IMG/VR virus record: IMGVR_UViG_3300020452_000175
Location: 1 to 23,374 of that record
Strand: one strand, 5' to 3'
Length of the DNA: 23,374 nt
From: a virus
In this document: piece after piece, positions 30 to 23,374 of the stretch
How the letters are laid out: the number at the start of each line of letters is the position of its first letter
Numbering within the stretch: position 1 is the stretch's first letter
Position numbers and translations under genes: made by a program
The notes under the pieces: model-generated
Told to the model about the DNA's origin: nothing
The model's input: only the letters and a program-made list of their open reading frames with translations
Database searches by the model: none

Positions 30-3000
30 CTATTCTTTGATGACATTGATATCCACCAGATAGGCAACTTCTTCTTCAGTAAAGTTGAACTGAGTATCTA
101 GATTATCGTAATCTGTAATATCAGGTACTTCTCCATTCTTAACAGCAGGAGCAAAACCACTAGTTCTCTTATGATTGTCAATATATAACTGAATCAAAGG
201 ATGCTCAAAGATCTTAGATAATCTCTCACCTTCTTCCTCATCTTCAATAGGACACCATGCATTGAGCATACCAATATGTGCATTGGTTACAAATCTCTTC
301 TTATATGACATAGAGTATGGTACAACAAACTTCAATACATCACCAGTATCAGGTTCTACATTAGTATTAGCAGGATTATTACCTGAATGTAAGACCTCAA
401 ACTCACCATCATCACAATAATCTTCAGTAGCAATTGCTTGACCCATCTTCAGTGGGATACGTGGATGACTAGAGTTAGCAATCTTCTCCAAAATAGAAGA
501 CTGAACTAAATTATCACCCCATAATGGTACACCATTACGAAGATCCCAATTAAACTCACCATCATCTGTAATAACTTTAGTCTTACCTTTATATGGTTCT
601 TTAGTTAAGTGCCAACTACAAATCTTTACATTTTGATTGAAGTGTTGGTCTGCTGTATAATCAATCTCCTTTAAATTATAAATCGTAGAACAAAGTTTAA
701 GGAACTTCTTACCAAACCCAGTAGTACCAATAAATGATGCAGGACAAACCTCACACATATCACCACCATCCACTAACATATCAACATGCTGCATTAAGAA
801 CTTAGGCCATAGCTTATTGTTCTTTGCTTTGTTGTCTGTATTTTGATAGGGAGGATTAGCAAGAATCGCTGTTGGACGTAACACTGGTTGTTCGTTGGTT
901 AGGGTAACATGCTTATCAATATATTCTACCCTATTTCTGTGGTTAGCACAATCATCCCAGACTGTCAATTCATGAACATTAACATTTTGTTCCAATAACC
1001 TAGCAGTATGAGAACCGCTTGGATCGGAGTGTATAAGGGTCTGTGAGGTGTCTTTTAATTTATCAATCATTGGGTCAAGAATAATTAAAGGAATAGGTTG
1101 CTGGATGGCAGAGGACACTGAGAGAGTATCTAAAGTCTTAGTTACAGACTCCCTCATACTTGTTACGATAGTCCTAGCTTCTGTACCAATACGACGTGTA
1201 AGTTTCTCTCTACTATTGTGATTAGCATCTATAACATCAGAGAGTATACCCTCAGTATCACCACTAATATCACTATAGATTGGTGATTTTAAAACATCAT
1301 CTATAGTATTAACATTCTTACCTTCCTTCAAGATATAAAAAATACAAAGAGGTATACTCCTTAAAATTGCCCTAACTACTTTCTTCTTCCATTTGTTAGG
1401 GTCTTCATTAGACTTTTTTACAGTATCAATCTCCGCTTTATAACCAATCTCATTATTCATATCATCATCACCTGCAAGTGCCCTCTTTATTACCTTTGAT
1501 GATTCATTATTTGTAGCAAAAGTATTTACATTGTACTTAAACTCAACATCATCTAAATTTAAAATTGACTCTAAACTTTCCATTGTAGTCATAGTAGAAT
1601 CAATATCAGTAGATAGAATACTATCAAATTCTTCCTTTGTTAGTTCCCTAAAACCATTATCATAACCTTTAAGATCCATAAACTGAGTTTCATGATACTC
1701 TCTCAACTCAGGATTACTATCACATGCTAACTGGAATGAAGCATGCATTGATTTAAGAGCACGTTTACCATTGAAGTCAATCATATGCCAATTATGTTTA
1801 CCTGATCCTCCACGGAAGGCAAATTGATTCCAGAACTCAAGAGATTCACCACCCTTACAGTTGATAATAGTATCAATCTTCTCATTGGTAAATCCTAATA
1901 CATTTGCAGATGAAGTAAGAATAAGTGCTTTTGGATGTTCCTCAATAAACTTATTAATTTCATCTGCCTTATTTTTAGTATCACTAGTAACAACTAAAGT
2001 AGGCCACCAACAATCAACAATTTTTTTAAACTCATGGCATGCTGCTATTTTAGATAGTGCCATCATCATATATCTTCCTTGGAAGATCTTCTGCTTCAAT
2101 CCAACCTCTCTTTGTGTACCTTTAGGATCAAAGTTATCATATGCAAAGTCACGAGGAAGTTCTGGATTTAAAAACTTGTCAGTCTCTTGATCTATCAGGA
2201 ATGTATTATTAATTGAATCAGGATCACTACCAAAAATCTTACGATATGCAGGTGTATCATACACTTTTATTGTTGGTAACATCCTAGGACGAGGTTCATC
2301 AAATACACCCTTCATAGAATCTAACTGCTCATCAAAATAACTATAGACAAACTTATTATCATCCTTAAAATCCCATACTATGCTGTAAGCAGTACCAGAT
2401 AGATACAGTATCTTGGTATTATACCTCTCTTTAAGTTCAGTAAACTGTTTTGCTGTAGAACCTATATGACACTCATCAGCAACAAGTAAATCTGGTTGAG
2501 GTATCTCACGATTCATTAACGATTGTACCGTTGCCCATAAAACAACATTAACTGGACGTTCCATCCAAAATTCTAAATCCTGTTTCCAATTCTTATCCTT
2601 AACTGAGATATATTTAATAGTTGGGAAGAAGGTATTAGAATCATCCCTCCATGATTGCTGTGGTGAATCAAATCTAGAACATACAACAGTAAACTTATAA
2701 TCCCAATTCACAATATGTTGAAGAGTCATTACAGACTTACCAGCACGACACTTTGCAAATAATAAAAACTGTTCGTGACCAGATTGCCATGCTTTAGAGA
2801 TCTTATTTAAAAACCTCTGTTGATATGTACGTGGTTCAAATACTTCCCATTTCTTTACTGCACCAGAGAACCATCTCTCTTCAACCATCTGAACTACCAT
2901 ATCCATACTATAGATAGACTCATCAAACTCAAAAGTCTCTCTACCAATCTGTGTCATACCAGGTAATTCTTTCTTCAACCAAGCATGTATAACATGATCT

Positions 3001-3206
3001 TGATGACCTATATCCAAATCTTTATCACGTCTTGTAGACTGATCTTCCCAATATCCATGATTCACAAACTCAGAATTAAAGACAGTCAATATCTGCTTTG
3101 CTTTACCATAGTCACCATCACTATGCCTCTGTTTATATGAACGTGTAGTCTCACCAAGATTAAACCTATTAGGAATATTCTTGTAACCATCCAAATAAAA
3201 ATGCAT
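30..3206 (-). CDS. helicase / N6-adenine DNA methyltransferase fusion (Type ISP-like)
   Basis: This protein of about 1058 residues joins an ATP-driven DNA translocase to a DNA adenine methyltransferase. Superfamily 2 helicase motifs appear in order: a Walker A-like AKCRAGKS near residues 152-159, the Walker B box VADECH near 243-248, SGTA near 271-274, and an arginine-finger-like QFAFRGGSGK near 462-471. A mixed linker follows. A class I methyltransferase then shows an AdoMet-binding motif I-like DPSGSHT near 729-735 and the catalytic NPPY near 785-788, typical of the Eco57I/gamma N6-adenine type. The remaining 270 residues could hold target recognition. This order recalls single-polypeptide Type ISP restriction-modification enzymes such as LlaGI, but those have an N-terminal Mrr-like nuclease of roughly 150 residues and are longer. 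Here only about 110 residues precede the helicase. I chose ATG at 3206 over TTG at 3209. A terminator just upstream isolates the gene from the fibre operon. Domain calls are firm; restriction activity is unknown. Confidence 0.85.
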   Translation of the reverse strand: MHFYLDGYKNIPNRFNLGETTRSYKQRHSDGDYGKAKQILTVFNSEFVNHGYWEDQSTRRDKDLDIGHQDHVIHAWLKKELPGMTQIGRETFEFDESIYSMDMVVQMVEERWFSGAVKKWEVFEPRTYQQRFLNKISKAWQSGHEQFLLFAKCRAGKSVMTLQHIVNWDYKFTVVCSRFDSPQQSWRDDSNTFFPTIKYISVKDKNWKQDLEFWMERPVNVVLWATVQSLMNREIPQPDLLVADECHIGSTAKQFTELKERYNTKILYLSGTAYSIVWDFKDDNKFVYSYFDEQLDSMKGVFDEPRPRMLPTIKVYDTPAYRKIFGSDPDSINNTFLIDQETDKFLNPELPRDFAYDNFDPKGTQREVGLKQKIFQGRYMMMALSKIAACHEFKKIVDCWWPTLVVTSDTKNKADEINKFIEEHPKALILTSSANVLGFTNEKIDTIINCKGGESLEFWNQFAFRGGSGKHNWHMIDFNGKRALKSMHASFQLACDSNPELREYHETQFMDLKGYDNGFRELTKEEFDSILSTDIDSTMTTMESLESILNLDDVEFKYNVNTFATNNESSKVIKRALAGDDDMNNEIGYKAEIDTVKKSNEDPNKWKKKVVRAILRSIPLCIFYILKEGKNVNTIDDVLKSPIYSDISGDTEGILSDVIDANHNSREKLTRRIGTEARTIVTSMRESVTKTLDTLSVSSAIQQPIPLIILDPMIDKLKDTSQTLIHSDPSGSHTARLLEQNVNVHELTVWDDCANHRNRVEYIDKHVTLTNEQPVLRPTAILANPPYQNTDNKAKNNKLWPKFLMQHVDMLVDGGDMCEVCPASFIGTTGFGKKFLKLCSTIYNLKEIDYTADQHFNQNVKICSWHLTKEPYKGKTKVITDDGEFNWDLRNGVPLWGDNLVQSSILEKIANSSHPRIPLKMGQAIATEDYCDDGEFEVLHSGNNPANTNVEPDTGDVLKFVVPYSMSYKKRFVTNAHIGMLNAWCPIEDEEEGERLSKIFEHPLIQLYIDNHKRTSGFAPAVKNGEVPDITDYDNLDTQFNFTEEEVAYLVDINVIKE

Positions 3207-3227
3207 CAATTTAATTTTACTGAACCT

Positions 3228-3233: not shown

Positions 3234-3377
3234 GCATAAAAAAAACCCCTTGATAGGGGTTTGTGACGGATCGTAATCTGGATCATAGTCTGGTTCTCTT
3301 GGATCAATCCGTGAATCCCACCAAAAGAACTGACATTGGTCTAAGCGCATATGCACTAATGGTCTATTTAATTTCAT
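3231..3377 (-). CDS. small acidic protein of 48 residues, translationally coupled to the fibre gene
   Basis: This ORF starts at an ATG overlapping the TGA stop of the fibre gene by four bases (ATGA), the coupling seen throughout this window. The product begins MKLNRPLVHM, has a WWD segment near residues 19-21, and then an acidic repeat-like stretch rich in Asp, Pro and Tyr (two DPDY-type units). No known domain is recognised. The last eleven or so codons are the terminator hairpin and T-tract itself, and the TAA stop lies five bases beyond the T-tract. Full-length product would therefore need read-through of the terminator. Coupling and composition suggest a real gene; function is unknown. 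Confidence 0.5.
   Translation of the reverse strand: MKLNRPLVHMRLDQCQFFWWDSRIDPREPDYDPDYDPSQTPIKGFFLC
3238..3262 (-). terminator. rho-independent terminator after the fibre transcript
   Basis: Read on the minus strand, an eight-base stem AAACCCCT / AGGGGTTT (3262-3255 with 3250-3243) encloses a four-base loop and runs into a tract of eight T residues. This is a strong intrinsic terminator for the transcript carrying the large fibre gene and the 48-residue ORF. The hairpin lies inside the last codons of that ORF. Confidence 0.9.
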
Positions 3378-6300
3378 TTTGATTCTAGTTTGTTTACTCT
3401 CTCTTTTAGTTCTGCAATCTGTAATTGCTGTTCCTTGATTGCTTCAATCAAAAGACCAACCATATTCTGATATGCAACTGACTTAAGTTTTGTATCAGGA
3501 TGTGTTTCTACAAGTTCTGGAAGAACCTTCTCAACCTCTTGTGCAATCAATCCAGTCTCAGGAAGACCACTAGACTTACGTATGTAATTTACACCACGTA
3601 ACATCTGAACTGTACTTAGAGCGTGTGGAATCGTCTCAACATTTCTCTTGATACTTTCATCAGATGTAACTGTGATTGTACCAGTAGAAGTTACGTTACC
3701 ATTCGCTGCAATTCTAAGTCTCTCTGATACGGCAGATGGACCTGTCTCCATTGTACCAAAGGTGATAGCAAACTGTCCAGATGATCCTTCAGATACACCT
3801 CGGATATATCCTCTCTCACCACTGTTACCAGTATCAAAACCTTCCCACTTAATACCACCATACTGGTATGAAGCATTAAGGATCGTATCAGTCTGTACAA
3901 ATCTTAAGAAGTTACCAGATGTATCTCCAGTAGTCTCTGGGTTAGTAGTAATAAGAACGTCTGCTTCATGAGTCGAGATACCAACTGTTCTAAATGTATT
4001 AGCATTAAGTTGTTGATTAAAGGTAGTAATACCAGTATTAATCAACCAACCATCAGGTACATTCCAAAGAACTGTGTCCATTCGGAACTCAACACTGTTC
4101 TCAAATAGAACCGCACCAGCAGCATATAGAGAATAACCTGCTTTTGCTTGAGAAGTTTCAATACCAACCTGTGCTGTGGTAGATATACCAACACCATCAA
4201 ATACCCAAACGTCAGATACGTTTGTTAACTGTGAACCATCTCCTTTAAATGATCCACTAAAGATACCAACATAGGAACCATCAGGGATCGCCTTGATAGG
4301 ACCAAATTCTTGCCAATTATTATCGTCAGTGTATACCCAACCAGCAGTTCCACCTGAAGATGGTTCTGAATCAAAGGTTATATCACCTACGTTACCAGCA
4401 ATTGAAGGAGTCGAGACACCAACACTATACTTTCTGGCAATAATTTCTTCACCTTGAATGAAGAGACTATTAACTTCAGCAGCAGCGTTTGTGGTTATCT
4501 TCTTATTAAAGACGACAGGACCATTAAACTCTGAGATAATATTCTTATCTTTACCACCATCAACCTTTATTCCTCGGTTAACTGTGAGTTGATCAGTATC
4601 CTCTACATCAAATCCAATAGCATTTGTATCAGATGTAATGTCTTCACCCGTAACTGTTGGTACTGGTGCTCCAGTAATTAAATCTTGTCCACTAGATCCG
4701 CTAGTAAACTTGTTAACAGTGTATTGGTTACCTTGGTCATCTAAACCATTATAGAATGGTGTACCACCATTATCAGATACAGACTGTGATAGAACTCGTT
4801 CTACATTCTTAAAGTCTCTATCCTGTCTAGATGGTAGTGCAGTAGAGTAGTTACCTGGTCCATATCCAAGATATTCAAATGTATGACCAGATGCACGAAT
4901 GATTGAGTTACGTCTAAATTCAATCGGTTTGAACCTAACTCTCCTAATTTGAGATCCAATTGCATGACTCTGTTTCTGAGTACCAAATAATCCACGGAAT
5001 ACATCAATAGTTGTATCCTGAACAACAGTCTCACTAATTCTCATTATCTCATTATCAACAACGAGATAGTCTCCAACATTCCAGTTGTAATTAAGAGCAT
5101 TAACAACTGTCAATGTATTAATAGTTGGGTCTGTTAATGCAACAGTAATTGATGTGGTAATACCTGCATACTGTGCAGATAATCTAGGAGATGCAAATTC
5201 ATTAGAAGGATCAATAACAGCAGCTTGAGCAGTATATCCTGTTGGATATAGTGACCATCCTGTTCCAGTTGGGGTTACTGCCTGAGTACCTACACCAACA
5301 TTGACTCCGAATGAATTGACTCCATATACCTCAGCAACATCAAATTCACCATTGAATAAATCTTGATCAAATCCAATAATTCTTGCACTATTATTGGTTA
5401 ATAAACCATGTGCATAATTTGTAACAGCACTTGCAATACCAGTAGTATTGTTATAAGTCAATGAAGTAATACCAACTACCTCACCAGTTACATAAGATGT
5501 AACGTCAGATAGAATAGTATTGTTAATGTTAGTCAAACCGTTGGTGTTGACACCTGCTATTGCAGCAGGACCACTGAATTGATATTCAGCATAAACCGTT
5601 GATGCTGAAGATACATTTACCTTCTTACTCTCACCAACAGGAACACTAGTTACTCTATAAAGTTGATTATAATCTGCAAATATACTATCTCTAATACCTT
5701 CAACCTTCAAGATCTCGTTGGTACTATCATGTATTTTAGTAACTTCAACAATACCTGCTGTCCATCCAGTTGTAGTAGCAACACCGACAACAGAAAGAGT
5801 ATTACCAATACCATATGCAGAACCACCATCAATTATCTTAACAGCAGTAATAGAACCGTTAGCATCAATCTTGATGTTTGCAGTAGCATTGTCTCCTGTT
5901 ACTGAAGTTCCAATCCCTACTAGTCTAGCATTATAAAGAGTCTGAATAGATCCAGATCCATCACCATATCCGTAACCAGCAGTAGATATTGCAACAATAT
6001 TAACTCTATTAAGGTTGTGATCTAGTTCAGTTGTTAATGTATGAGCAGTACCACTCTGTGATTCAATCTCAACAATTCCAACACCAACCTCAAAGTCTCT
6101 AATATTTTTATTAACAACCTCTTTGGTAATACTATTCTTAGGATCGTTTACATCAGTTAAACCAATGGGTGATGGTAGAGAGAATGTTCTAGTCTGATCA
6201 GGATCAGAATTTGGATTATCTCGATCTAACTGTGGATAAAGATTCTTAATAGGTTGTGAGAACCTCATATCATCGAATGGTTCTACACTAGGACTGTTAG

Positions 6301-9217
6301 AAGCATCAATTAGAGTTAAGTGATAAACACCATCCTTGACATTTGCCTTGTATTCCTGAATCTCGTCCTTCTTATAAAGGTATAAGGTGTTATTAAATTC
6401 AGTTCTAGTATATCTTGGAAGACTTGTATTTCTTTGAGATGTATTATTCTGGAATACACCTGGATCTGTCTTAATACCAACAGTAAATTCTCTTCTAGAA
6501 GTTCTACCTGTTACAGTGTATTGACCGTTATATCCAGTATTACCTAATCCAGTTGTGTTAAGACCAGATACTATATTAGTAATAGCAACTTTAGATCCAA
6601 CAGATAATTCGTGAGGAACTTCAGAAGTAAATGTAGCAACACCAACTGTTCCAATACCAGCATCCCAAACTGCATTTGAGAGGAATCTTGGGTTCCTTAA
6701 TTCAGAAGTATTACTAATCTGAACTGGATCAATACTATTATACTTAAGTACTTCAGCATCAGTTAATCCTACAGTAGAACTAGATTCTTGAATAACAAAT
6801 GAATCGCTTGGTGGTTTAGATAATACAGTAGAATCTTTAGGTACAACATATCTTACCTTATAGATCCTATCATCTAGAGATCTAGCATCAGGTTTCCTGC
6901 TTATAAATGTTCGTGGAGATGCTTGACCTAAAGTTGATGTTCCTAAACCTACAACAGAATCATAAATCTCGTTACTAGTAGTACTTACATTAACATACCA
7001 CTGACCAATAGAAGAATCATATTGAACTGGGTGACCAATATCACCTGATCCTTTATCTGATACTCTAGACTCAATACTTAAAATACCACCCTTACTATTA
7101 ACAGATACAGGTGCTAAACTAATAGTATCATTTAAGGTCTGTGCTAATTTAACTTGGTCACTATTAATACCAGAAGTAATTGCAAAGTAAACTGTGTTAT
7201 GGTCTATACCATCTGGAAGTTCACCATCATCACTCATTACTCTAACAGATTCACCATTAATAAACTGGTGACTATCAGTTAAAGTAAAGATATTAGAAGT
7301 AATACTGTTAATACCAATATTATTCCTACCAACAGTAGTTGTCTTAATAGAACTTACTTCTTTTGCACCAGTACCCTGAGTCTCAGGAAGAATTATCCTA
7401 GACTTCTTAGTAACTGGAATACCATTAATATTAAAGATTGCTTTTAGATCATCATTCTTTGCAGCACCAAGTCTATAACCTTCTAGTACTGTATTTGGTG
7501 GTTCAGCAGAGTTAAATCTATTATATAAGTATAATCTCGATGAGTTAGCAACACTAACAGTCTTATCAACATCAACAGGTAAAAATTCTATACCTATATC
7601 CTTACTATCAATCTTTTGTGGAGGGATAAAGTGTGTAACATATCCAGTATCGTCTCTTGCGAAGGCATCTGCCCTAAATCCTTTACAAACAATTGCTCTC
7701 GAACCGAAGTTAGAGTTAGAGTTGGTAATAGAATGGTCACCACCACTCTCTGCTACGAAATGATTAGCATAACCAATACCAAACGTAGATACTAATTGTA
7801 AAAACGCATCATTGGATGCTTTAATATGGAAGTTAGTGTAGGAGGGTTTGTAGAGTGCTCTTGAATCTGTGTGTAAATTAGATACAGCAGTAGAGTCCTC
7901 GTAAACGCCAGATGTGGGGTTGTATTTAACAAATGCATTGTCATCTTTTTGTAGTCCTATACCAGTGAACTGGGCAACAACCATAGATTTAAATCCATCT
8001 GCCTTTGATCCATCAGCATGGAGTCCACACATACCATAAACTGATCTTAATGAACAGTTAAAGATATATGGAGAAGCAGAAGTAACTGTATCAACAACAA
8101 TATTAAGTGTTGGTGATCCACTTACAATGTTAGGAAGTGCGTTTGAAGGAGGAGAAGATACATTATATTTAATTCTACTATCACTTTCTACCTTATTAAT
8201 AACAAATGATCCGTTATATCCACCAACAGGAACTCCTTCGATCCTGATTGGAGTATCAACATCAAGTCCTTTAATTCCTTCAGTAATATCAACTGTAATT
8301 TCAGTAGATGATGTACTACCATCACCTGCCTTGATACTACTAATACCAATATTTTGTCCTTGTGATCCAACAATACGGTGTTCATCAATTTTTGCTTGAA
8401 TATCTACAGCACTATTAGGGAAGTCAGGACTAATCTCTCTTCCACTAGAAGCTCCATAAAGTAAACCGATCTTCTGATAATACATATCAAGATCAGTTCT
8501 TGTTGTATTATAGTTTAAGTAAGAGTCAGCAAACTTAACACTGTTAACACCATCAGCGTATTCAAAACATGTAAGCTTGTGATGTGATTTATTAGGTACG
8601 AACTTATTGTTGCCATAATCTTGGAATATTAAAGAATTGGGATCTGCGTCAAAAAATGTAAACTGGTTAAAGTAACATGTACCTGTAACTCTAAACAAGC
8701 ATGTTGAATCAATCGTTCCGTCTTCTGGGTTTGGAACAAATTTTGGTCTAACTTTAGTCTTTCTAAGATCTCTTCCAACTATAGAAGTACCACGAGGGAT
8801 AATAACTCCACCGAAGACAGAGTTCACCTTATAGAGATCATTATCGTCGCTATCAATATCAAAATTAGTATCTAATGTAAATTCTGTCAACCCATTAGAT
8901 CCAGATCCACCCCTTGTCATCCAGTTATTACCAGACAAAGGATTATCATGAATAGGTATCCAACCTGGACGGTTGTCTATAACATGCTCACCTGGATATA
9001 CTATGATAGTGGTTCTACTGAACCTATCATTGTCCAACCCCTTTTGATATGAAAATCTAGATGCCTCAATAAGTGCCCTTTGAATAGTCTTAAAGGGTCT
9101 TACTAAGGAGTTACCTTGATTCTCAATACTATCGGTTGAGTCTATACTTGAAGGATCAACGTAAAGAATATCTCCACGACTGTTCTTCAGAAAATTATCT
9201 AAGCGACTAAGACCCAT
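3374..9217 (-). CDS. large tail-fibre-like virion protein with C-terminal S74 intramolecular chaperone
   Basis: This is a 1947-residue protein of the kind cyanomyoviruses carry as a large virion structural or fibre protein. The N-terminus (about residues 15-100) has the YVDPSS...RPFKTIQRAL pattern that opens pectin-lyase-like beta-helices. The middle is long, low in Cys and rich in Thr, Ser, Gly and Asn. It carries loosely repeated modules with a YNG/FNG core near residues 335, 905 and 1280. The C-terminal 96 residues are an S74 endosialidase-type chaperone: SDESIK at about 1852-1857 holds the self-cleavage Ser and the usual Lys, followed by GLIAQEVEKVLPE and a terminal coiled coil. In the family this domain trimerises the fibre and cuts itself off. 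The gene follows a T4-like late promoter at 9251-9258. S74 is certain from motifs; host-receptor binding is inferred. Confidence 0.9.
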   Translation of the reverse strand: MGLSRLDNFLKNSRGDILYVDPSSIDSTDSIENQGNSLVRPFKTIQRALIEASRFSYQKGLDNDRFSRTTIIVYPGEHVIDNRPGWIPIHDNPLSGNNWMTRGGSGSNGLTEFTLDTNFDIDSDDNDLYKVNSVFGGVIIPRGTSIVGRDLRKTKVRPKFVPNPEDGTIDSTCLFRVTGTCYFNQFTFFDADPNSLIFQDYGNNKFVPNKSHHKLTCFEYADGVNSVKFADSYLNYNTTRTDLDMYYQKIGLLYGASSGREISPDFPNSAVDIQAKIDEHRIVGSQGQNIGISSIKAGDGSTSSTEITVDITEGIKGLDVDTPIRIEGVPVGGYNGSFVINKVESDSRIKYNVSSPPSNALPNIVSGSPTLNIVVDTVTSASPYIFNCSLRSVYGMCGLHADGSKADGFKSMVVAQFTGIGLQKDDNAFVKYNPTSGVYEDSTAVSNLHTDSRALYKPSYTNFHIKASNDAFLQLVSTFGIGYANHFVAESGGDHSITNSNSNFGSRAIVCKGFRADAFARDDTGYVTHFIPPQKIDSKDIGIEFLPVDVDKTVSVANSSRLYLYNRFNSAEPPNTVLEGYRLGAAKNDDLKAIFNINGIPVTKKSRIILPETQGTGAKEVSSIKTTTVGRNNIGINSITSNIFTLTDSHQFINGESVRVMSDDGELPDGIDHNTVYFAITSGINSDQVKLAQTLNDTISLAPVSVNSKGGILSIESRVSDKGSGDIGHPVQYDSSIGQWYVNVSTTSNEIYDSVVGLGTSTLGQASPRTFISRKPDARSLDDRIYKVRYVVPKDSTVLSKPPSDSFVIQESSSTVGLTDAEVLKYNSIDPVQISNTSELRNPRFLSNAVWDAGIGTVGVATFTSEVPHELSVGSKVAITNIVSGLNTTGLGNTGYNGQYTVTGRTSRREFTVGIKTDPGVFQNNTSQRNTSLPRYTRTEFNNTLYLYKKDEIQEYKANVKDGVYHLTLIDASNSPSVEPFDDMRFSQPIKNLYPQLDRDNPNSDPDQTRTFSLPSPIGLTDVNDPKNSITKEVVNKNIRDFEVGVGIVEIESQSGTAHTLTTELDHNLNRVNIVAISTAGYGYGDGSGSIQTLYNARLVGIGTSVTGDNATANIKIDANGSITAVKIIDGGSAYGIGNTLSVVGVATTTGWTAGIVEVTKIHDSTNEILKVEGIRDSIFADYNQLYRVTSVPVGESKKVNVSSASTVYAEYQFSGPAAIAGVNTNGLTNINNTILSDVTSYVTGEVVGITSLTYNNTTGIASAVTNYAHGLLTNNSARIIGFDQDLFNGEFDVAEVYGVNSFGVNVGVGTQAVTPTGTGWSLYPTGYTAQAAVIDPSNEFASPRLSAQYAGITTSITVALTDPTINTLTVVNALNYNWNVGDYLVVDNEIMRISETVVQDTTIDVFRGLFGTQKQSHAIGSQIRRVRFKPIEFRRNSIIRASGHTFEYLGYGPGNYSTALPSRQDRDFKNVERVLSQSVSDNGGTPFYNGLDDQGNQYTVNKFTSGSSGQDLITGAPVPTVTGEDITSDTNAIGFDVEDTDQLTVNRGIKVDGGKDKNIISEFNGPVVFNKKITTNAAAEVNSLFIQGEEIIARKYSVGVSTPSIAGNVGDITFDSEPSSGGTAGWVYTDDNNWQEFGPIKAIPDGSYVGIFSGSFKGDGSQLTNVSDVWVFDGVGISTTAQVGIETSQAKAGYSLYAAGAVLFENSVEFRMDTVLWNVPDGWLINTGITTFNQQLNANTFRTVGISTHEADVLITTNPETTGDTSGNFLRFVQTDTILNASYQYGGIKWEGFDTGNSGERGYIRGVSEGSSGQFAITFGTMETGPSAVSERLRIAANGNVTSTGTITVTSDESIKRNVETIPHALSTVQMLRGVNYIRKSSGLPETGLIAQEVEKVLPELVETHPDTKLKSVAYQNMVGLLIEAIKEQQLQIAELKERVNKLESK

Positions 9218-9245: not shown

Positions 9246-9452
9246 TTATATATTTATACCCTCAGAATCACCACCCTTTTCACGTAACTCGATCAAATGC
9301 TCAATCGTAGTTGCTACGTCATTCATTGCTTCTCGAATTTCTTTTCTACTACCAGTCTCTTGGTGGCATGCTCCCTTGGGAGAATATCTTTTAGTATATA
9401 GGGACCACCGCCATTCATTTAGTTGTGGGGAGTGCCATATTTGAACTCTCAT
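9246..9452 (-). CDS. conserved-type small protein of 68 residues
   Basis: This small protein, rich in Trp, Arg and Glu, begins MRVQIWHSPQ and ends with a charged helical segment (IREAMNDVATTIEHLIEL). It resembles short proteins of unknown function that cyanomyoviruses encode among their accessory genes, but I recognise no domain. It overlaps the end of the oxygenase-like gene by 38 bases, longer than the usual four, and no later in-frame Met is available, so this start is the likely one. The fibre's late promoter lies in its last codons. Confidence 0.65.
   Translation of the reverse strand: MRVQIWHSPQLNEWRWSLYTKRYSPKGACHQETGSRKEIREAMNDVATTIEHLIELREKGGDSEGINI
9251..9258 (-). promoter_or_regulatory. 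T4-type late promoter (TATAAATA)
   Basis: A perfect TATAAATA octamer on the minus strand lies 33 bases upstream of the fibre ATG, inside the last codons of the preceding 68-residue gene. This is the T4 late consensus, recognised in T4 by the gp55 sigma-like factor with the gp45 clamp. Initiation would be expected about ten bases downstream, leaving a short leader of about 25 bases. Confidence 0.8.
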
Positions 9453-10518
9453 ATACTGGGTTACTCCAATCGTTGGTGAAGTTTCTTAAATACTCTATCT
9501 TATCTAGCATCTCCCAACTATCTAATACAAACTCTTCGTTAGCAAAATGCAACTTAACTTTAAGTGCGACTGCCAAACGCATAATATAGTCTCTTCTATG
9601 ATAATCATCAGGTAAAGAAAATATACTAAACATCATAATATGATCAAGATTACCTTCTTGAATCAAATACTCTAGATAAGTATGCTTTCTACCTTCATTA
9701 TCACCAGTTTGATGTGGGAAGGTATAACCCATCCTATTACAATAGTCTTTAACGGTCAAAGTTTGGAAGTGTAAATCAATATATCTTGTCTTAAATCCCT
9801 CATACTCAGCATACATTACAACATTGTCGTTGTGTTTAATCTCGACCTTACGTGAATGAATGTCAGTATCACCTAATTTCCTAAAGTATGCACCAGGCCA
9901 TTTCCTATGAGGTTGACCATCTTTTAATAGAAGTCTAACATCAACACTCATTCTAGTTTTACCAGTTCTATTAGGAGCAGCACCATGAATATGCTCCTGA
10001 GTAAACAAGATAAACTGACCCTTCTTAATATTGACTGGTTCACAGGACTTCTGACATTCCTCTTGAAGTCTAGGGTAGTCCCACTCTTTACATGCATCAG
10101 TAATTTCCCTACTATCCATAAGGTTTACTATTTGCAGAGAGTTACTATCATAGGCATCAGTAAAAGGTAACCATACAGTTCTAAGACCTAAACCATTACC
10201 AACCCATTGACCTTGATGGAATGGTAAAACAGTCCCATCCTTATCTTGATTGGGTATGTTAATTCGTATATTACCAAACCTTTGCACCAATATCTCACCC
10301 AAAGAGACATAATCCTTTAAGAGTTTATCAAAGATCTCATAAAAATTAGTATCTGCTAAATCCTTACCTATAATCTTTGCTAGTTCTCCAATCTTTTTAG
10401 CAGGAACATGCTCATGTAATAAAGACAAATCCTGCACATCAGGATAGTGTTTTTGAATCGACTCTAGAGCAATTTCTGACAGGGGATAATTTTTCGCATC
10501 ATATGTGTATCGTCTCAT
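9415..10518 (-). CDS. 2OG-Fe(II) oxygenase-like domain fused to LIC12192-type sporadic carbohydrate cluster domain
   Basis: This protein has 367 residues and two parts. Residues 1 to about 200 resemble the phytanoyl-CoA/2OG-Fe(II) oxygenase family linked to sporadic carbohydrate clusters: an LVQRFGNIRINIP strand, PFHQGQW (100-105), LRTVWLPFTDAYDSNSLQIV, GQFILFTQEHIHG (167-179) with distal His 176/178, and RMSVDVR (189-195) for 2OG binding. The metal-binding HxD motif is not seen. The first His (101) is followed by Gln-Gly, so the site reads HxG. Residues about 235-355 (KTRYIDLHFQTLTVKDYC, then MMFSIFSLPDDYHRRDYI and LHFANEEFVL) match my memory of the LIC12192 family, normally a separate protein of about 130 residues from the same clusters. 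The start overlaps the upstream 43-residue ORF by ATGA. Substrate is unknown; a glycan or sugar-nucleotide role is inferred. Confidence 0.7.
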   Translation of the reverse strand: MRRYTYDAKNYPLSEIALESIQKHYPDVQDLSLLHEHVPAKKIGELAKIIGKDLADTNFYEIFDKLLKDYVSLGEILVQRFGNIRINIPNQDKDGTVLPFHQGQWVGNGLGLRTVWLPFTDAYDSNSLQIVNLMDSREITDACKEWDYPRLQEECQKSCEPVNIKKGQFILFTQEHIHGAAPNRTGKTRMSVDVRLLLKDGQPHRKWPGAYFRKLGDTDIHSRKVEIKHNDNVVMYAEYEGFKTRYIDLHFQTLTVKDYCNRMGYTFPHQTGDNEGRKHTYLEYLIQEGNLDHIMMFSIFSLPDDYHRRDYIMRLAVALKVKLHFANEEFVLDSWEMLDKIEYLRNFTNDWSNPVYESSNMALPTTK

Positions 10519-10646
10519 CGTTTCACATCATGAGCACATCCATCACCTTTATAGTCATCGCTATCATAATATCCACCTCTAGTCCCTGCGTAAAAGGTTG
10601 CTATCACAAATGGAATAGCAGTCCATAGGAGTATGTTACCTAGCAT
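10515..10646 (-). CDS. small single-pass membrane protein, 43 residues
   Basis: This ORF is joined to both neighbours: its ATG overlaps the stop of the NifU-like gene by one base (TGATG), and its TGA overlaps the start of the oxygenase fusion by four (ATGA). Residues 3-20 form a hydrophobic helix (GNILLWTAIPFVIATFYA). A short tail rich in Gly, Tyr and Asp with a Cys at 37 follows. One-segment membrane peptides like this are common in cyanomyovirus accessory regions. I recognise no family. The double coupling is the main reason to believe it is translated. Confidence 0.65.
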   Translation of the reverse strand: MLGNILLWTAIPFVIATFYAGTRGGYYDSDDYKGDGCAHDVKR

Positions 10647-10882
10647 CACAATACCTGAACAACTCCAACACAATCAGGAATATCCATCATCACTTTCTTC
10701 TCTATACCCTGTTTCAATGTCATAGCACTCATGGCACATGACTCACATGCACCACCCAATCTTATTTTGACAAGGTTTGTTTCTTCTTCTATTTCTACAA
10801 ACTCTAACCATCCACCATCTGCCTCAATATAGGGTATAAGGTCTTCAAGAGCCTTCTTTACGTTTTCTTCTGTTAATTCCAT
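10646..10882 (-). CDS. NifU-like (Nfu-type) iron-sulfur cluster carrier
   Basis: This 78-residue protein is a complete stand-alone NifU C-terminal domain, the fold that holds a [4Fe-4S] cluster between two subunits and hands it to target proteins. The features seen are an N-terminal helix ending IEADGGWLEFV, a strand VKIRLGGAC, the cluster-binding CESC (Cys46 and Cys49), and a following helix SAMTLKQGIEKKV with a closing beta strand. The length matches bacterial and cyanophage Nfu proteins. In the phage it may support Fe-S enzymes, such as host ferredoxin or photosystem components, during infection. It sits in the sigma70-driven island close to three iron-dependent oxygenase-type genes. The next gene upstream ends eight bases inside its start. 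Confidence 0.9.
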   Translation of the reverse strand: MELTEENVKKALEDLIPYIEADGGWLEFVEIEEETNLVKIRLGGACESCAMSAMTLKQGIEKKVMMDIPDCVGVVQVL

Positions 10883-11849: not shown

Positions 11850-11878
11850 ATTATATAGTCCTTAGATACTACTGTCAA
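11850..11878 (-). promoter_or_regulatory. consensus sigma70-type promoter
   Basis: On the minus strand TTGACA (11878-11873) and TATAAT (11855-11850) are both perfect and separated by 17 bases. The TGA inside the -35 hexamer is the stop codon of the upstream oxygenase gene. This type is used for early phage transcription by the unmodified host polymerase. It should drive the small genes from 11723 downward through the NifU-like gene. Confidence 0.9.
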
Positions 11879-12459
11879 GTCTTGGCATTAAACCAGAAGG
11901 ATAATATGTATCGAGTTCCAGACTCAACCTCACTAACATGATGAAGGTATTCTCGATTTGAGAATATTAATAACTTACCAGTTTTTGGTTTAACATCATA
12001 CCATACTTCCCCATTTATATTATCAAATTGAGTATGCCCACCAATATAATTATCATTCAAATATAAAAATGCTGCAAGAACATTAGGACTAAACATCTCA
12101 GACTTATCGTAATGAGGTTTCATAAATGTACCCTTAGGCCATCTTATAACACCACAATAATCTAATTGAATATCATTAACAAATGTTTTACAAATACTGG
12201 TTACATTACTAATAGTATTTTTAAAGAGTTCATCCTTTGTTAATTTAATATCAACAGGACGTACATCTCCACCCAAATAAATTGCACCATAATCACCATC
12301 TGGTTCTGGTATCTTAGGAGAATAACTTAAAGTCTCACCAGAATTTGAATGGGTTACCGTTTCTAAAAAGGAATCATTTTCCTTCTCATGAAGATCAATA
12401 AATGGTTGACATAAAGACGGACTTAAAAACTCGTCCTCAATATACATTACTTTCTTCAT
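11875..12459 (-). CDS. 2OG-Fe(II) oxygenase, prolyl 4-hydroxylase type (copy 2)
   Basis: This 194-residue protein has the double-stranded beta-helix signature of Fe(II)/2-oxoglutarate dioxygenases. The metal ligands are His116 and Asp118 in TFMKPHYD and distal His173 in YLHHVSEV, and Arg183 in GTRYILSFWF would hold 2-oxoglutarate. A DYCGVIRWPKG strand, AAFLYLNDNYIGGHTQF and KPKTGKLLIFSN complete the family pattern. Proteins of this type hydroxylate proline, other residues or small molecules; the phage substrate is unknown. Start: an ATG four codons further upstream is possible, but the ATG at 12459 overlaps the preceding TGA (ATGA), and the resulting MKKVMYIEDEF start aligns with the neighbouring paralogue's MKKLIYTEENF. 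It is a clear tandem relative of that gene. Its stop codon lies inside the -35 box of the next promoter. Confidence 0.9.
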   Translation of the reverse strand: MKKVMYIEDEFLSPSLCQPFIDLHEKENDSFLETVTHSNSGETLSYSPKIPEPDGDYGAIYLGGDVRPVDIKLTKDELFKNTISNVTSICKTFVNDIQLDYCGVIRWPKGTFMKPHYDKSEMFSPNVLAAFLYLNDNYIGGHTQFDNINGEVWYDVKPKTGKLLIFSNREYLHHVSEVESGTRYILSFWFNAKT

Positions 12460-12950
12460 TGGTTGTACCATATACTAAGAGCAAATCTCTCACCACCCTC
12501 AATCTTACTGACCGAATGTTTATACACAGAATTTGAGAAGATAAGTAACTTACCTGTCTCTGGTTTTATCCATGCATCATCAAAGCAAGTGTACCCACCT
12601 TTAAAATCGTCATTTAAATAAAGAACTGCTGCAAATAAATCAGGTTCTTGATTGGGTCTATGTGGATCAATATGAGGGTTCATAAAAGTACCAGGAGGCC
12701 ACCTTACCACACCTGCATAATCTATAAGTACCCTTTGATCAAATGTCTTACAAATATTCGTTACTCTATCGACAGCATTATTCTTTTGAGATTCAAAGTA
12801 TATTCCATCAAGAGTTGTTAGATATGTATTACCACCTCTACTATCATCACCATAAGGTATCTCATCTGGATTTGCCCTAGATAATTTAATAAGTTCCTGA
12901 CATTCTTCTGGAGTTATAAAATTCTCTTCTGTGTATATTAATTTCTTCAT
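12456..12950 (-). CDS. 2OG-Fe(II) oxygenase, prolyl 4-hydroxylase type (copy 1)
   Basis: A compact 164-residue Fe(II)/2-oxoglutarate dioxygenase. His93 and Asp95 (FMNPHID) and His145 (YKHSVSKI) are the metal triad, and Arg155 (GGERFALSIW) is the 2-oxoglutarate residue. The shared family blocks DYAGVVRWPPGTFM, AAVLYLNDDFKGGYTCFDD and KPETGKLLIFSN align with the following gene, so the two arose by duplication. The second copy carries about 30 extra residues, mostly before the core and around the active-site loop. The gene starts with an ATGA overlap on the Cys-containing 82-residue gene and ends with an ATGA overlap on copy 2. All catalytic residues are present, so activity is likely. The substrate cannot be told from sequence. 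Confidence 0.9.
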   Translation of the reverse strand: MKKLIYTEENFITPEECQELIKLSRANPDEIPYGDDSRGGNTYLTTLDGIYFESQKNNAVDRVTNICKTFDQRVLIDYAGVVRWPPGTFMNPHIDPHRPNQEPDLFAAVLYLNDDFKGGYTCFDDAWIKPETGKLLIFSNSVYKHSVSKIEGGERFALSIWYNQ

Positions 12951-13222: not shown

Positions 13223-13251
13223 AATTTAGGATAAAAAATTGTGTATGTCAA
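13223..13251 (-). promoter_or_regulatory. sigma70-type promoter
   Basis: TTGACA (13251-13246) is perfect, the spacer is 17 bases, and the -10 hexamer TAAATT (13228-13223) matches TATAAT at four of six. The TGA in the -35 box is the stop codon of the nucleotidyltransferase gene, the same layout as at 11850-11878. The promoter should drive the 82-residue gene and the two oxygenases. Confidence 0.75.
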
Positions 13252-13691
13252 GCAGTCCATTCTTCATTCCATCTATTAAGAATCCATGAACTACTATTCT
13301 TTTTATCATCACCACCAATACCAAATTTAAATTCTACTCTAGGATTATCAGCATACTTTTCCATCTCTGGAGTAGTACCCCTAGTCCTATCACCACCATT
13401 ACAAAATATTACCTTATCATATATCTCAAGTGCCATCCATATTGCATCATTAGCAGTATCATCCTTATCATTAAATTCAATAGCAACATCAACACACTTC
13501 AATTCTTTAATTATAGACATCCTTTCTTCCACATTCATAAAATACTTTCCTTTTTTCCTAACTAACCAATCGTCAGAATTAACAGCAACTCCTAAAGTTC
13601 CAAGTTCCTTTGCTGCTTTGAAGTATTGAATATGTCCACTATGTAAGGGATCGAATCCTCCACTTACTAATACTAAAGTTTTTTCATCCAT
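13248..13691 (-). CDS. HIGH-motif nucleotidyltransferase (cytidylyltransferase / heptose-phosphate adenylyltransferase type)
   Basis: This 147-residue protein transfers a nucleotidyl group from CTP or ATP to a phosphorylated sugar or alcohol. The signature GGFDPLHSGHIQYF contains the nucleotide-binding HSGH (17-20). VNSDDWLVRKKG forms the next strand and loop, and the C-terminal SSSWILNR (133-140) matches the ISSTxxR motif of the glycerol-3-phosphate cytidylyltransferase and RfaE families. The length fits a stand-alone family member. The frame stays open upstream to a GTG at 13769, but the ATG at 13691 gives the family's normal N-terminus (MDEKTLVLVSGG) and overlaps the stop of the 34-residue ORF by eight bases, so I use it. 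Sugar substrate and nucleotide cannot be decided. A link with the glycan-cluster-like fusion protein downstream is inferred. Confidence 0.88.
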   Translation of the reverse strand: MDEKTLVLVSGGFDPLHSGHIQYFKAAKELGTLGVAVNSDDWLVRKKGKYFMNVEERMSIIKELKCVDVAIEFNDKDDTANDAIWMALEIYDKVIFCNGGDRTRGTTPEMEKYADNPRVEFKFGIGGDDKKNSSSWILNRWNEEWTA

Positions 13692-13788
13692 TGTATTTTT
13701 TCTTTTTAGGTTTGTCACTCTCAGTGTGCTTTTTTTTCTTTTTCTTTTTGGTTCCGTTGCCGTTACCAAGGAAGCGATATCGAGGCAT
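13684..13788 (-). CDS. lysine-rich peptide, 34 residues
   Basis: This short ORF begins at an ATG overlapping the stop of the fibre/tip gene by one base (TAATG) and ends eight bases inside the nucleotidyltransferase gene. The product opens MPRYRFLGNGNG, then has seven consecutive Lys, and another KKKK run near the end. About 40 percent of residues are Lys or Arg, so it would bind nucleic acid or acidic surfaces. The codons are A-rich (AAA and AAG), with a run of eight A residues. The exact placement between two genes supports translation. No known family is recognised. Confidence 0.6.
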   Translation of the reverse strand: MPRYRFLGNGNGTKKKKKKKHTESDKPKKKKYNG

Positions 13789-21203: not shown

Positions 21204-23374
21204 CTACACTACCCCCATGATGCCATAGAGTTCCATGCAATTTTTGCGATGTGCGTTCTCAAAAATTACAGGGAAGTCTTTTACTTCTCTCGACCCAGTT
21301 AAAGTACTACCACCACCACCATCTTTAATAACCTGTGGTGGTAAATTCGTAATATTGAATCCACCTTTTCCTGGTGGCATTGGAGGTTCTGGAATCGGAG
21401 GTGGTGGAGCCATCTCTAATTTAGTAATCCTCTCTTCCAATACAGGTAATTCAGAAGGTACAAGATTTGCGGTAACATTAACAATAGGACCGCTCATTTT
21501 ATTCTTAACAGCACCAATAGCACCACCAACAACATCCTTTGCCTTACCAAGCAATCCCTTACCAATACCAAATGGGTCCATAATCTTACTAGCAACTCCA
21601 CCTGCTTTCTTTAATCCACCACCAATACCTTTTAACATTCCACCAGCAAGACCTTGTGCTCCTTGCTCTCCAGGCGCACCCATTTTTCCTTCTGGTCCTT
21701 GAGCACCGTCAACACCATCTTTGGGAGGTGTTAAATCTACTGTTGCCGCATCCTTATTACCCAAATCAACTTTCTGTGGTTTCATTGGTTGTGGTTTAGG
21801 TCCAGCAACTAATCCACCACCAGACATCTTCTGAACATTCTCTGCAATCTCAGGAACATTTGATCCTCCAGCAGCAGCGTTCATACCTAAAAGAGTCTCA
21901 GCACCATACTTTTGTACAGCACCTTTACTCATCATAACTTCACCAGGTTGAGCAGCAATTAATTGAGTATCTGGTTCTGCACCTTTAACTCTCTGACCAC
22001 TTTTAGGAGTAATCTCTCCACCATTATTGAATAATGGAACTCCTGGTGTCATAGGAACTATTTGCCCACCACCAGAATATCCAACCATATCACCAATCTT
22101 CCATCCTCCACCTGCATCTGCACCCTGCTGTGAAGCATTGGGCATAACATTCATACCCGCTCCTTCCCAGACTGTTTCAGGTGCAGAATTTATATCACCT
22201 GATTTTGTATCTTTCGGAACTACACTTTCCTCTTTTTTATCTCCTTCACCATTCATTTTAGATATTCCAAACGCAGCTAATCCACCAAGTGCTATTGCAC
22301 CTGCTGCCCACGGGTTTTTCGCTATCGCCTTCAAAGCCGCAGGAATCCCCTTCTTCAACATAAACCCTGTAACGGTTAATAATTTAGCGACTACAAATTT
22401 TATCAATCCACCCAAAGGAGTGGCAAATAATACAAACGCAGCTAATAAAGTCGGCCACCAATCACCAATAAATCTTCCAAGTGTGTCTAACTGCTTTTTA
22501 TTCTGAGGATCACCAACATAGTCTACAAAGTTTAATAATAACTTACCTAAAAGAATAGTAGTTAAGAATTTTATAAGTCTATCAAAAACACTTTGAACAG
22601 GTGCTAATGCTTTACTTGCTACATTTTTAAGTCCCTTTATAGGACTCTCCATTTTATTTTCTGCTGCTGATCGTTGTGATTTCTCGTTCTGTTTCTTACG
22701 ACGAGCAATATCATTACGAATTAATGTATGTGAATTAGCAACAATCTCAGCAATTGATTCAACTGTTGTTCGTATTGCTTTTATAACTCCACCAATACCT
22801 TCAGGACCACCTTCTCCACCTTCACCACCTACCTCTGCGTCTGGTGGTCCTGGAGGTGCAGGGGGTTTTTTGTTAAAGAAACTATCAGAAAAATCTTGTC
22901 CACCAGTAGTAGCACCCTCACCAGCAGGAGCTTCATCATCACCTTCTGCTTGACCTTTTCTTACCTTAAATCTACCAACTTTACTTTTAACTCTCTTCCA
23001 TTCTTCTGTTATTAATTCAACTTCCTCATTAGACATGGTGGTTTTACCCATCCTGCCTTCTGCCATCTTCTCTCTTAAGAGAGTTCTGTAAGTAGCATAA
23101 TCAATACCAACTGTATCATCTAGTCCAATAATTCTTAATATTCTTTCATCAATCTCTTCGTCAACTAAATCCTCTTCACGAGTTCCTTCATATACATTTT
23201 GTCTTCCACCACTCGCACCAGTGCCACCATCACTCCCATCATCACCAGATCTACCATCAGCACCATCAGATCCTGAAGCACCTTGAGCACCTGACGTTCC
23301 AGCAGATCCTGAAGCACCCGAAGCACCTGACGCACCTGACGTTCCAGCAGATCCTGAGGCACCCGAAGCACCTG
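21204..23374 (-). CDS. collagen-like, membrane-segment-rich virion protein (5' part outside window)
   Basis: The reading frame is open to the window edge, so 722 residues are visible and the true start is outside. An internal ATG at 23066 would leave out the first 102. The visible N-terminus is about 18 collagen-like Gly-X-Y triplets rich in Ser, Ala and Asp, then an acidic linker (EEDLVDEEIDERILRIIG). Further on are a Pro/Gly-rich linker, hydrophobic helices about 160-185 and 200-270 residues after that internal Met, and a GEITPKSGQRVKG...QLIAAQPGEVMMSKGAV segment like those in tape-measure and tail proteins of related phages. A second, shorter collagen-like run (GAQGPEGKMGAPGEQG) lies at about 450-485 on the same scale. 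Location before the hub genes suggests tail assembly or genome delivery. Exact role is uncertain. Confidence 0.72.
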   Translation of the reverse strand, partial: GASGASGSAGTSGASGASGASGSAGTSGAQGASGSDGADGRSGDDGSDGGTGASGGRQNVYEGTREEDLVDEEIDERILRIIGLDDTVGIDYATYRTLLREKMAEGRMGKTTMSNEEVELITEEWKRVKSKVGRFKVRKGQAEGDDEAPAGEGATTGGQDFSDSFFNKKPPAPPGPPDAEVGGEGGEGGPEGIGGVIKAIRTTVESIAEIVANSHTLIRNDIARRKKQNEKSQRSAAENKMESPIKGLKNVASKALAPVQSVFDRLIKFLTTILLGKLLLNFVDYVGDPQNKKQLDTLGRFIGDWWPTLLAAFVLFATPLGGLIKFVVAKLLTVTGFMLKKGIPAALKAIAKNPWAAGAIALGGLAAFGISKMNGEGDKKEESVVPKDTKSGDINSAPETVWEGAGMNVMPNASQQGADAGGGWKIGDMVGYSGGGQIVPMTPGVPLFNNGGEITPKSGQRVKGAEPDTQLIAAQPGEVMMSKGAVQKYGAETLLGMNAAAGGSNVPEIAENVQKMSGGGLVAGPKPQPMKPQKVDLGNKDAATVDLTPPKDGVDGAQGPEGKMGAPGEQGAQGLAGGMLKGIGGGLKKAGGVASKIMDPFGIGKGLLGKAKDVVGGAIGAVKNKMSGPIVNVTANLVPSELPVLEERITKLEMAPPPPIPEPPMPPGKGGFNITNLPPQVIKDGGGGSTLTGSREVKDFPVIFENAHRKNCMELYGIMGVV
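23288..23374. repeat. 45-base tandem repeat encoding collagen-like triplets
   Basis: Two 42-base blocks, 23288-23329 and 23333-23374, match with one difference and are offset by 45 bases, equal to 15 residues or five Gly-X-Y triplets. The second runs into the window edge, so more copies may follow. The repeat lies in the N-terminal part of the partial structural gene. Confidence 0.8.

Follow-up and report, generated by a model that had tools for sequence, protein, structure and literature searches.

A phage protein that fuses two sporadic carbohydrate cluster families has a glycine-substituted putative iron site and a predicted resolvase fold

Iron(II)/2-oxoglutarate (Fe/2OG) halogenases carry a recognised signature, in which Gly or Ala replaces the Asp ligand of the iron site (PMC12346261, PMC11186838, PMC12871659). 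A missing carboxylate is no proof of halogenation, since AspH, a natural two-His Fe/2OG enzyme, is a hydroxylase (PMC8252765); the D414G variant of P4H is neither halogenase nor hydroxylase (PMC2767507). Marine phages do carry halogenases, among them VirX1 and other flavin-dependent enzymes of cyanophages (PMC10452541). The two protein families that concern us here are defined by curated profiles: TIGR04324 (SpoChoClust_2, the sporadic carbohydrate cluster 2OG-Fe(II) oxygenase), with a cut-off of 150 bits, and TIGR04323 (SpoChoClust_1, the LIC12192 family), with a cut-off of 55 bits. Our literature searches found no paper that mentions "sporadic carbohydrate cluster" or LIC12192, and searches for sugar halogenases and for repurposed resolvases returned nothing useful.

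We analyzed a 23,374-nt stretch of an IMG/VR virus record, hereafter the window, which is a fragment of a T4-like phage encoding tail tube and hub proteins, a baseplate hub-lysozyme, and a tail fibre of 1947 aa; it contains no tRNAs. On its minus strand lies an ATG-to-stop open reading frame (ORF) of 367 aa, whose domains and predicted active-site residues are collected in Table 1. Our main reading, to which we give a probability of roughly 0.4, is that this gene encodes a glycan-tailoring enzyme made from two fused neighbours, that its substrate would be a sugar, and that its reaction would most likely be halogenation.

Table 1. Positions in the window of the fused gene, its predicted functional parts, and two neighbouring genes
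Feature	Position	Strand	Basis
Fused two-domain protein, TIGR04324-like N-domain and TIGR04323/LIC12192 C-domain	9415..10518	-	Profile matches, AF2 model
N-domain, residues 1-228, predicted double-stranded beta-helix of PhyH/SyrB2 type	9835..10518	-	TIGR04324, PhyH, Foldseek, VIA
C-domain, residues 229-367, LIC12192 family, predicted serine-recombinase catalytic fold	9418..9834	-	Profile, structure model
Metal motif H101-Q102-G103: predicted first His ligand, Gly replacing the Asp ligand	10210..10218	-	
H178, predicted distal His ligand	9985..9987	-	Invariant in 45 relatives
R189, expected ligand of the 2-oxoglutarate C5-carboxylate, 11 residues past the distal His	9952..9954	-	
Large tail fibre gene, 1947 aa, S74 chaperone at end, next in same direction	3374..9217	-	
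Heptose-1-phosphate adenylyltransferase-like nucleotidyltransferase, upstream, same direction	13248..13769	-	

Both profiles match the one ORF, in agreement with the sequence-only reading, which had described a fusion of two sporadic carbohydrate cluster families. The C-terminal half had been likened to the LIC12192 family, and in an NCBIfam scan residues 237-344 did match TIGR04323 (7.5e-15), at a borderline score of 55.0 bits, or 57.7 bits in genome mode, which is above the cut-off but again borderline; relatives of the protein score 25 to 61 bits. The proposal that the N-terminal half belongs to the 2OG-Fe(II) oxygenase family held only in part. Residues 27-196 are homologous to TIGR04324 (9.1e-24), although at 84.4 bits they fall under its cut-off, compared with 283 to 342 bits for the curated members we found, and they do not have the HxD ligand of those members. 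Given these two differences, "oxygenase" is an unsafe label for this half, and an annotation of the fused phage gene as a 2OG oxygenase is probably wrong in its chemistry. The Pfam family PhyH also matches the N-half (33.6 bits, cut-off 22). AF2 modelled the whole fused protein with a pLDDT of 94 and a pTM of 0.90, and a sequence search of the PDB with the whole protein gave chance matches only.

The two families had been described as distinct proteins that co-occur in bacterial glycan clusters, and this proved correct. Matches above the cut-off for each family occurred in the same 6 of 398 sampled Pseudomonadota genomes; in 6/6 of these the two genes were adjacent, about 30 bp apart, with transaminases, a split transketolase, a sugar epimerase, or a radical SAM gene nearby. 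A single scan of 84,980 bacterial and archaeal species genomes gave three loci. In one of them (L163) a fused gene lies on a Roseivirga chromosome, within a polysaccharide cluster, surrounded by ABC-2 export genes, glycosyltransferases, sulfotransferases, NodZ-like fucosyltransferases, and a GDP-mannose dehydratase. Another, in a KSB1 genome (L164), consists of two separate, overlapping genes inside a polysaccharide cluster, and a second genome of the KSB1 phylum (L202) has the same unfused, overlapping arrangement, also in a polysaccharide cluster. The third (L162) is a contig, CAJQJC010000067.1, in a Candidatus Pelagibacter metagenome-assembled genome (MAG); with its structural-type proteins, radical SAM protein, and sugar genes it looks like phage DNA, either wrongly binned or from a phage captured with the cell. 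Neighbouring genes are thus found in six Pseudomonadota and two KSB1 genomes, and a fused gene in Roseivirga. No further copy was found among 241 genomes of the order of genome G001, and plasmids yielded only distant HxD PhyH proteins with the window query and no match for the L150 protein or for the C-domain of L145.

The fusion recurs widely among phages. Near-identical fused ORFs are present in further contigs, which argues against a single-contig artefact, and many additional contigs have more distant versions, at 26-72% identity. Scanning with patterns placed outside the metal motif confirmed that 329 IMG/VR stretches encode relatives. In the motif-blind scan, whose patterns drew on residues that follow the metal motif, both domains shared one ORF in 80/80 of the loci kept, so that the fusion is present in related phages. 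Among cultured phages in GenBank, neither the window protein nor the L131 protein had a relative. In seven phages (L085, L063, L120, L067, L088, L129, and L132) the fused gene is present twice in tandem; the second type reads HQGIWYGHGPGMY and has a weaker LIC12192 half. Three phages with the fused HxG gene also encode, close to it, a free-standing PhyH-like paralogue of HxD type (FHKDTEYGH), at L145:2-460, L254:1-519, and L265:2-460.

Across 133 neighbouring phage ORFs we counted 12 radical SAM proteins, 10 nucleotide-sugar epimerases or dehydratases, 4 nucleotidyltransferases, 4 GNAT proteins, 3 DegT aminotransferases, and 2 carbamoyltransferases, and in clades other than that of the window, proteins of these kinds, among them GDP-mannose dehydratase and heptose-adenylyltransferase-like proteins, adjoin the fused gene. 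In the window itself, the neighbours of the fused gene are mostly tail genes, and the order of fused gene, small ORF, and tail fibre is kept in its clade (12 loci checked). The heptose-1-phosphate adenylyltransferase-like gene, which is kept in the four closest loci tested, is a possible sugar-activation gene for the fused enzyme. This context, together with the bacterial polysaccharide clusters, supports the earlier suggestion that the phage carries a glycan-tailoring step. Because the unfused genes are adjacent or overlapping in bacteria, they are fused in Roseivirga, the bacterial copies sit in polysaccharide clusters, and the phages conserve the fusion, we consider a joint function of the two domains in glycan tailoring, likewise suggested beforehand, to be well supported.

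Several other genes of the window deserve mention. Directly upstream of the fused gene is a protein of 78 aa with a NifU-like Fe-S scaffold domain (10646-10882, minus strand), which is kept in the closest relatives. Farther upstream, a tandem of overlapping genes (11875-12471 and 12456-12950, minus strand) encodes two 2OG-Fe(II) oxygenases of small size, in which the HxD motif is normal (PHYD and PHID); PHROGs 2297 and 274 call such proteins "DNA endonuclease," which is probably a misannotation. Downstream of the tail fibre, a gene for 1059 aa (30-3209, minus strand) joins a ResIII-type helicase region to a DNA methyltransferase region resembling Eco57I and PHROG 3689, and this gene has the same position in L055, L096, and L097. 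A tail-region ORF cut by the window end (21204-23372, minus strand) starts with collagen-like Gly-x-y repeats (GASGASGSAGTSG...) and has a second collagen-like stretch internally.

The predicted iron site of the N-domain sets these proteins apart from the curated TIGR04324 members. In an alignment with 45 relatives at 26-72% identity, H101, G103, H178, and R189 are invariant, and Trp, Asn, and Thr residues around the iron site are invariant or nearly so; the role of R189 is the one expected from a PhyH-type fold. The motif of the window protein is H101-Q-G103-x-W. The six TIGR04324 proteins above the cut-off (L168-L173) instead read HSDVW or HADLW, the normal HxD, whereas Gly occupies the ligand position in essentially all fused phage proteins, in the Roseivirga protein, and, with the reading HTGLW, in the KSB1 proteins. 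The motif-blind tally was 78 HxG versus 1 HxD. At the DNA level, a pattern for HxG (HQG) was found in at least 120 stretches and one for HKD/HQD in 8, of which 6 (on 5 contigs) are family members.

The HKD phage proteins are fused as well (one is cut by a contig end), and they differ systematically from the HxG phage proteins only at Q102, G103, V106, R113, and F119, five positions that fall in an 18-residue stretch about the metal ligand. We had considered that an acidic residue elsewhere might compensate for the lost Asp and dropped the idea, as none was gained in the HxG group; since this comparison with the HKD proteins revealed no acidic residue specific to the HxG group, there is no obvious replacement ligand. 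In two trees, the HKD clade was placed next to L131 within the HxG proteins (96/86 with the motif columns and 83/87 without them). A reversion nested inside HxG, our first reading, is nevertheless only one possibility, because a single HxG clade was not rejected by an AU test with the motif columns removed (p 0.458). The iron ligand may have changed between Asp and Gly within one family, with HKD either ancestral or regained.

In the window protein HxG replaces HxD/E while the distal His and the 2OG Arg are kept, the halogenase motif, and SyrB2 and WelO5 have the same HxG/A pattern, with no acidic ligand, as the clade of phage, KSB1, and Roseivirga proteins. When the AF2 model was compared with known structures using Foldseek, the halogenase domain of CurA came out on top (1.6e-8) and SyrB2 was in the top ten. 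A second structural comparison, with VIA, placed PtlH first (Z 13.8) and had hydroxylases, including PHYHD1, at the top, so that the fold does not decide between halogenase and hydroxylase. We favour an N-domain that is a working two-His Fe/2OG enzyme, binding iron and 2OG, and by analogy with the described enzymes we regard halogenation as the likeliest, if unproven, single chemistry.

The most serious alternative is an enzyme in which water occupies the open site and which, without any carboxylate ligand, hydroxylates, desaturates, or epimerises a sugar. This is a strong rival given the precedent of AspH (PMC8252765), the Z ranking of the fold, in which PtlH and other hydroxylases come closest, and the HxD sister proteins of the same gene pairing, which are presumably hydroxylases. 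It would, however, leave unexplained both the strict Gly and the few HKD phages whose accompanying changes lie only round the metal, and HxG/A is otherwise the accepted mark of a halogenase (PMC12346261, PMC11186838, PMC12871659).

We think it improbable that the N-domain has abandoned catalysis and merely binds or acts as a scaffold for the C-domain. Pseudoenzymes commonly arise when a metal ligand is lost. In addition, P4H with a D-to-G change is inactive (PMC2767507). Against this reading, both His residues, the 2OG Arg, and the nearby Trp, Asn, and Thr vary little or not at all among relatives of 26-72% identity, and a closely related clade has Asp with the same other residues.

The C-domain yielded a feature that the sequence-only reading missed, namely a predicted resolvase fold. 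Modelled alone, the domain had a pLDDT of 84.7, and in a VIA search with this model the first 31 entries were catalytic domains of serine recombinases, with Z from 12.4 (4bqq) to 7.6, followed by the first non-recombinase at 6.7. Aligned with hhalign, the C-domain and recombinase profiles matched in register with a score of 27.2, at a probability of only 21%; the maximum was 16.2 in 100 column shuffles, and the reversed profile scored 10.4. In sequence searches, the Pfam family that drew the largest number of C-domain members was PF00239, with 3/46 matching at a best E of 0.058, which is not significant, and a PDB search with the C-domain profile gave chance matches only. In the hhalign register, the position of the catalytic Ser is mostly Glu or Asn (Ser in 3/49), and Arg occurs in 0/49 at the two catalytic Arg positions of the DRxxR motif. 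The LIC12192 domain is therefore predicted to have the catalytic fold of serine recombinases without the catalytic Ser or Arg, and it looks like a recombinase fold recruited to another task. Residues conserved even when the curated bacterial copies are included are Y236, Q252, Y259, L282, S298, L302-P303, R309, H324, and E328, and the domain probably binds or transforms a sugar substrate.

A resolvase-like domain could instead hold phage DNA, in which the 2OG domain would oxidise or halogenate a base or a sugar. Phages are known to hypermodify their DNA. The predicted fold would suit such a role, as would the existence of the Fe/2OG nucleotide halogenase AdaV (PMC11186838), yet the bacterial copies lie in polysaccharide clusters, the domain has neither the catalytic Ser nor the Arg residues, and we see no DNA-binding region beside it, so we rate this reading as very unlikely. 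Chance resemblance or a contig artefact, which might be suspected from a TIGR04323 score right at its cut-off, is refuted already by the 329 further stretches, the presence of both domains in all 80 kept loci, and the unfused neighbours in bacteria.

Returning to a halogenating glycan-tailoring enzyme, we propose that the fusion of two proteins encoded side by side in bacteria would give one enzyme for tailoring a glycan, either a nucleotide-sugar or a surface polysaccharide. H101 and H178 would hold Fe(II) and R189 would hold 2-oxoglutarate, while Gly103, standing in place of the Asp ligand, would leave an open coordination site. A halide would fill this site, the ferryl would abstract a hydrogen atom from one of the carbons of the sugar, onto which the halogen would then rebound. 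The C-domain would bind the substrate or perform a coupled step, using Y236, Q252, Y259, S298, R309, H324, and E328.

Two features are new here, the HxG site at the predicted iron centre and the predicted resolvase fold of LIC12192, an obscure family that thereby gains a predicted fold and a partner. An annotation as 2OG oxygenase gives way to a claim open to testing, that infection by marine phages may yield sugars that are halogenated or unusual in some other way. We suggest, tentatively, that a widespread family of marine phages might carry the first virus-encoded Fe(II)/2OG halogenase, and the first acting on glycan sugars, fused to a recruited resolvase fold and with a switch between Asp and Gly. 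If so, the HxG and HxD proteins would be natural near-neighbour pairs with few active-site differences, in which a change from hydroxylase to halogenase could be tested.

Among known systems, TIGR04324 is related to the fused protein by profile, by its pairing with TIGR04323, by its glycan clusters, and by the region of the distal His and 2OG Arg, but the window protein scores below 150 bits, has HxG rather than HxD, and is fused to TIGR04323. The C-domain shares the Y, Q, Y, S, LP, R, H, and E positions of the curated bacterial TIGR04323 copies; those are free proteins of 120-150 aa with LHxAVE, whereas here the domain follows an oxygenase-like domain and reads LHFANE. Its likeness to serine recombinases consists of the predicted fold and a weak in-register profile similarity, and it differs in having almost no catalytic Ser and no catalytic Arg, no DNA-binding region, and a location in glycan clusters. 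AviO1 and EvdMO1, the orthosomycin oxygenases, are Fe/2OG enzymes that act on oligosaccharides and match in PhyH fold; they belong to their own orthosomycin pathway, have a centre presumed to be HxD, and are without a LIC12192 domain. AspH is likewise a two-His Fe/2OG enzyme without the carboxylate, although of a different subfamily and hydroxylating EGF-like protein domains. VirX1-type halogenases are flavin enzymes whose fold and mechanism are unrelated to those of the fused protein. SyrB2, the CurA halogenase domain, WelO5, and AdaV share with it the two His ligands, Gly or Ala in place of Asp, and a PhyH-like beta-helix, but show no close sequence relation (only a partial match of 17.7 bits to TIGR01762), and the known substrates of Fe/2OG halogenases are carrier-protein-bound, alkaloid, or nucleotide, whereas the substrate proposed here is a sugar and its halogenation a prediction.
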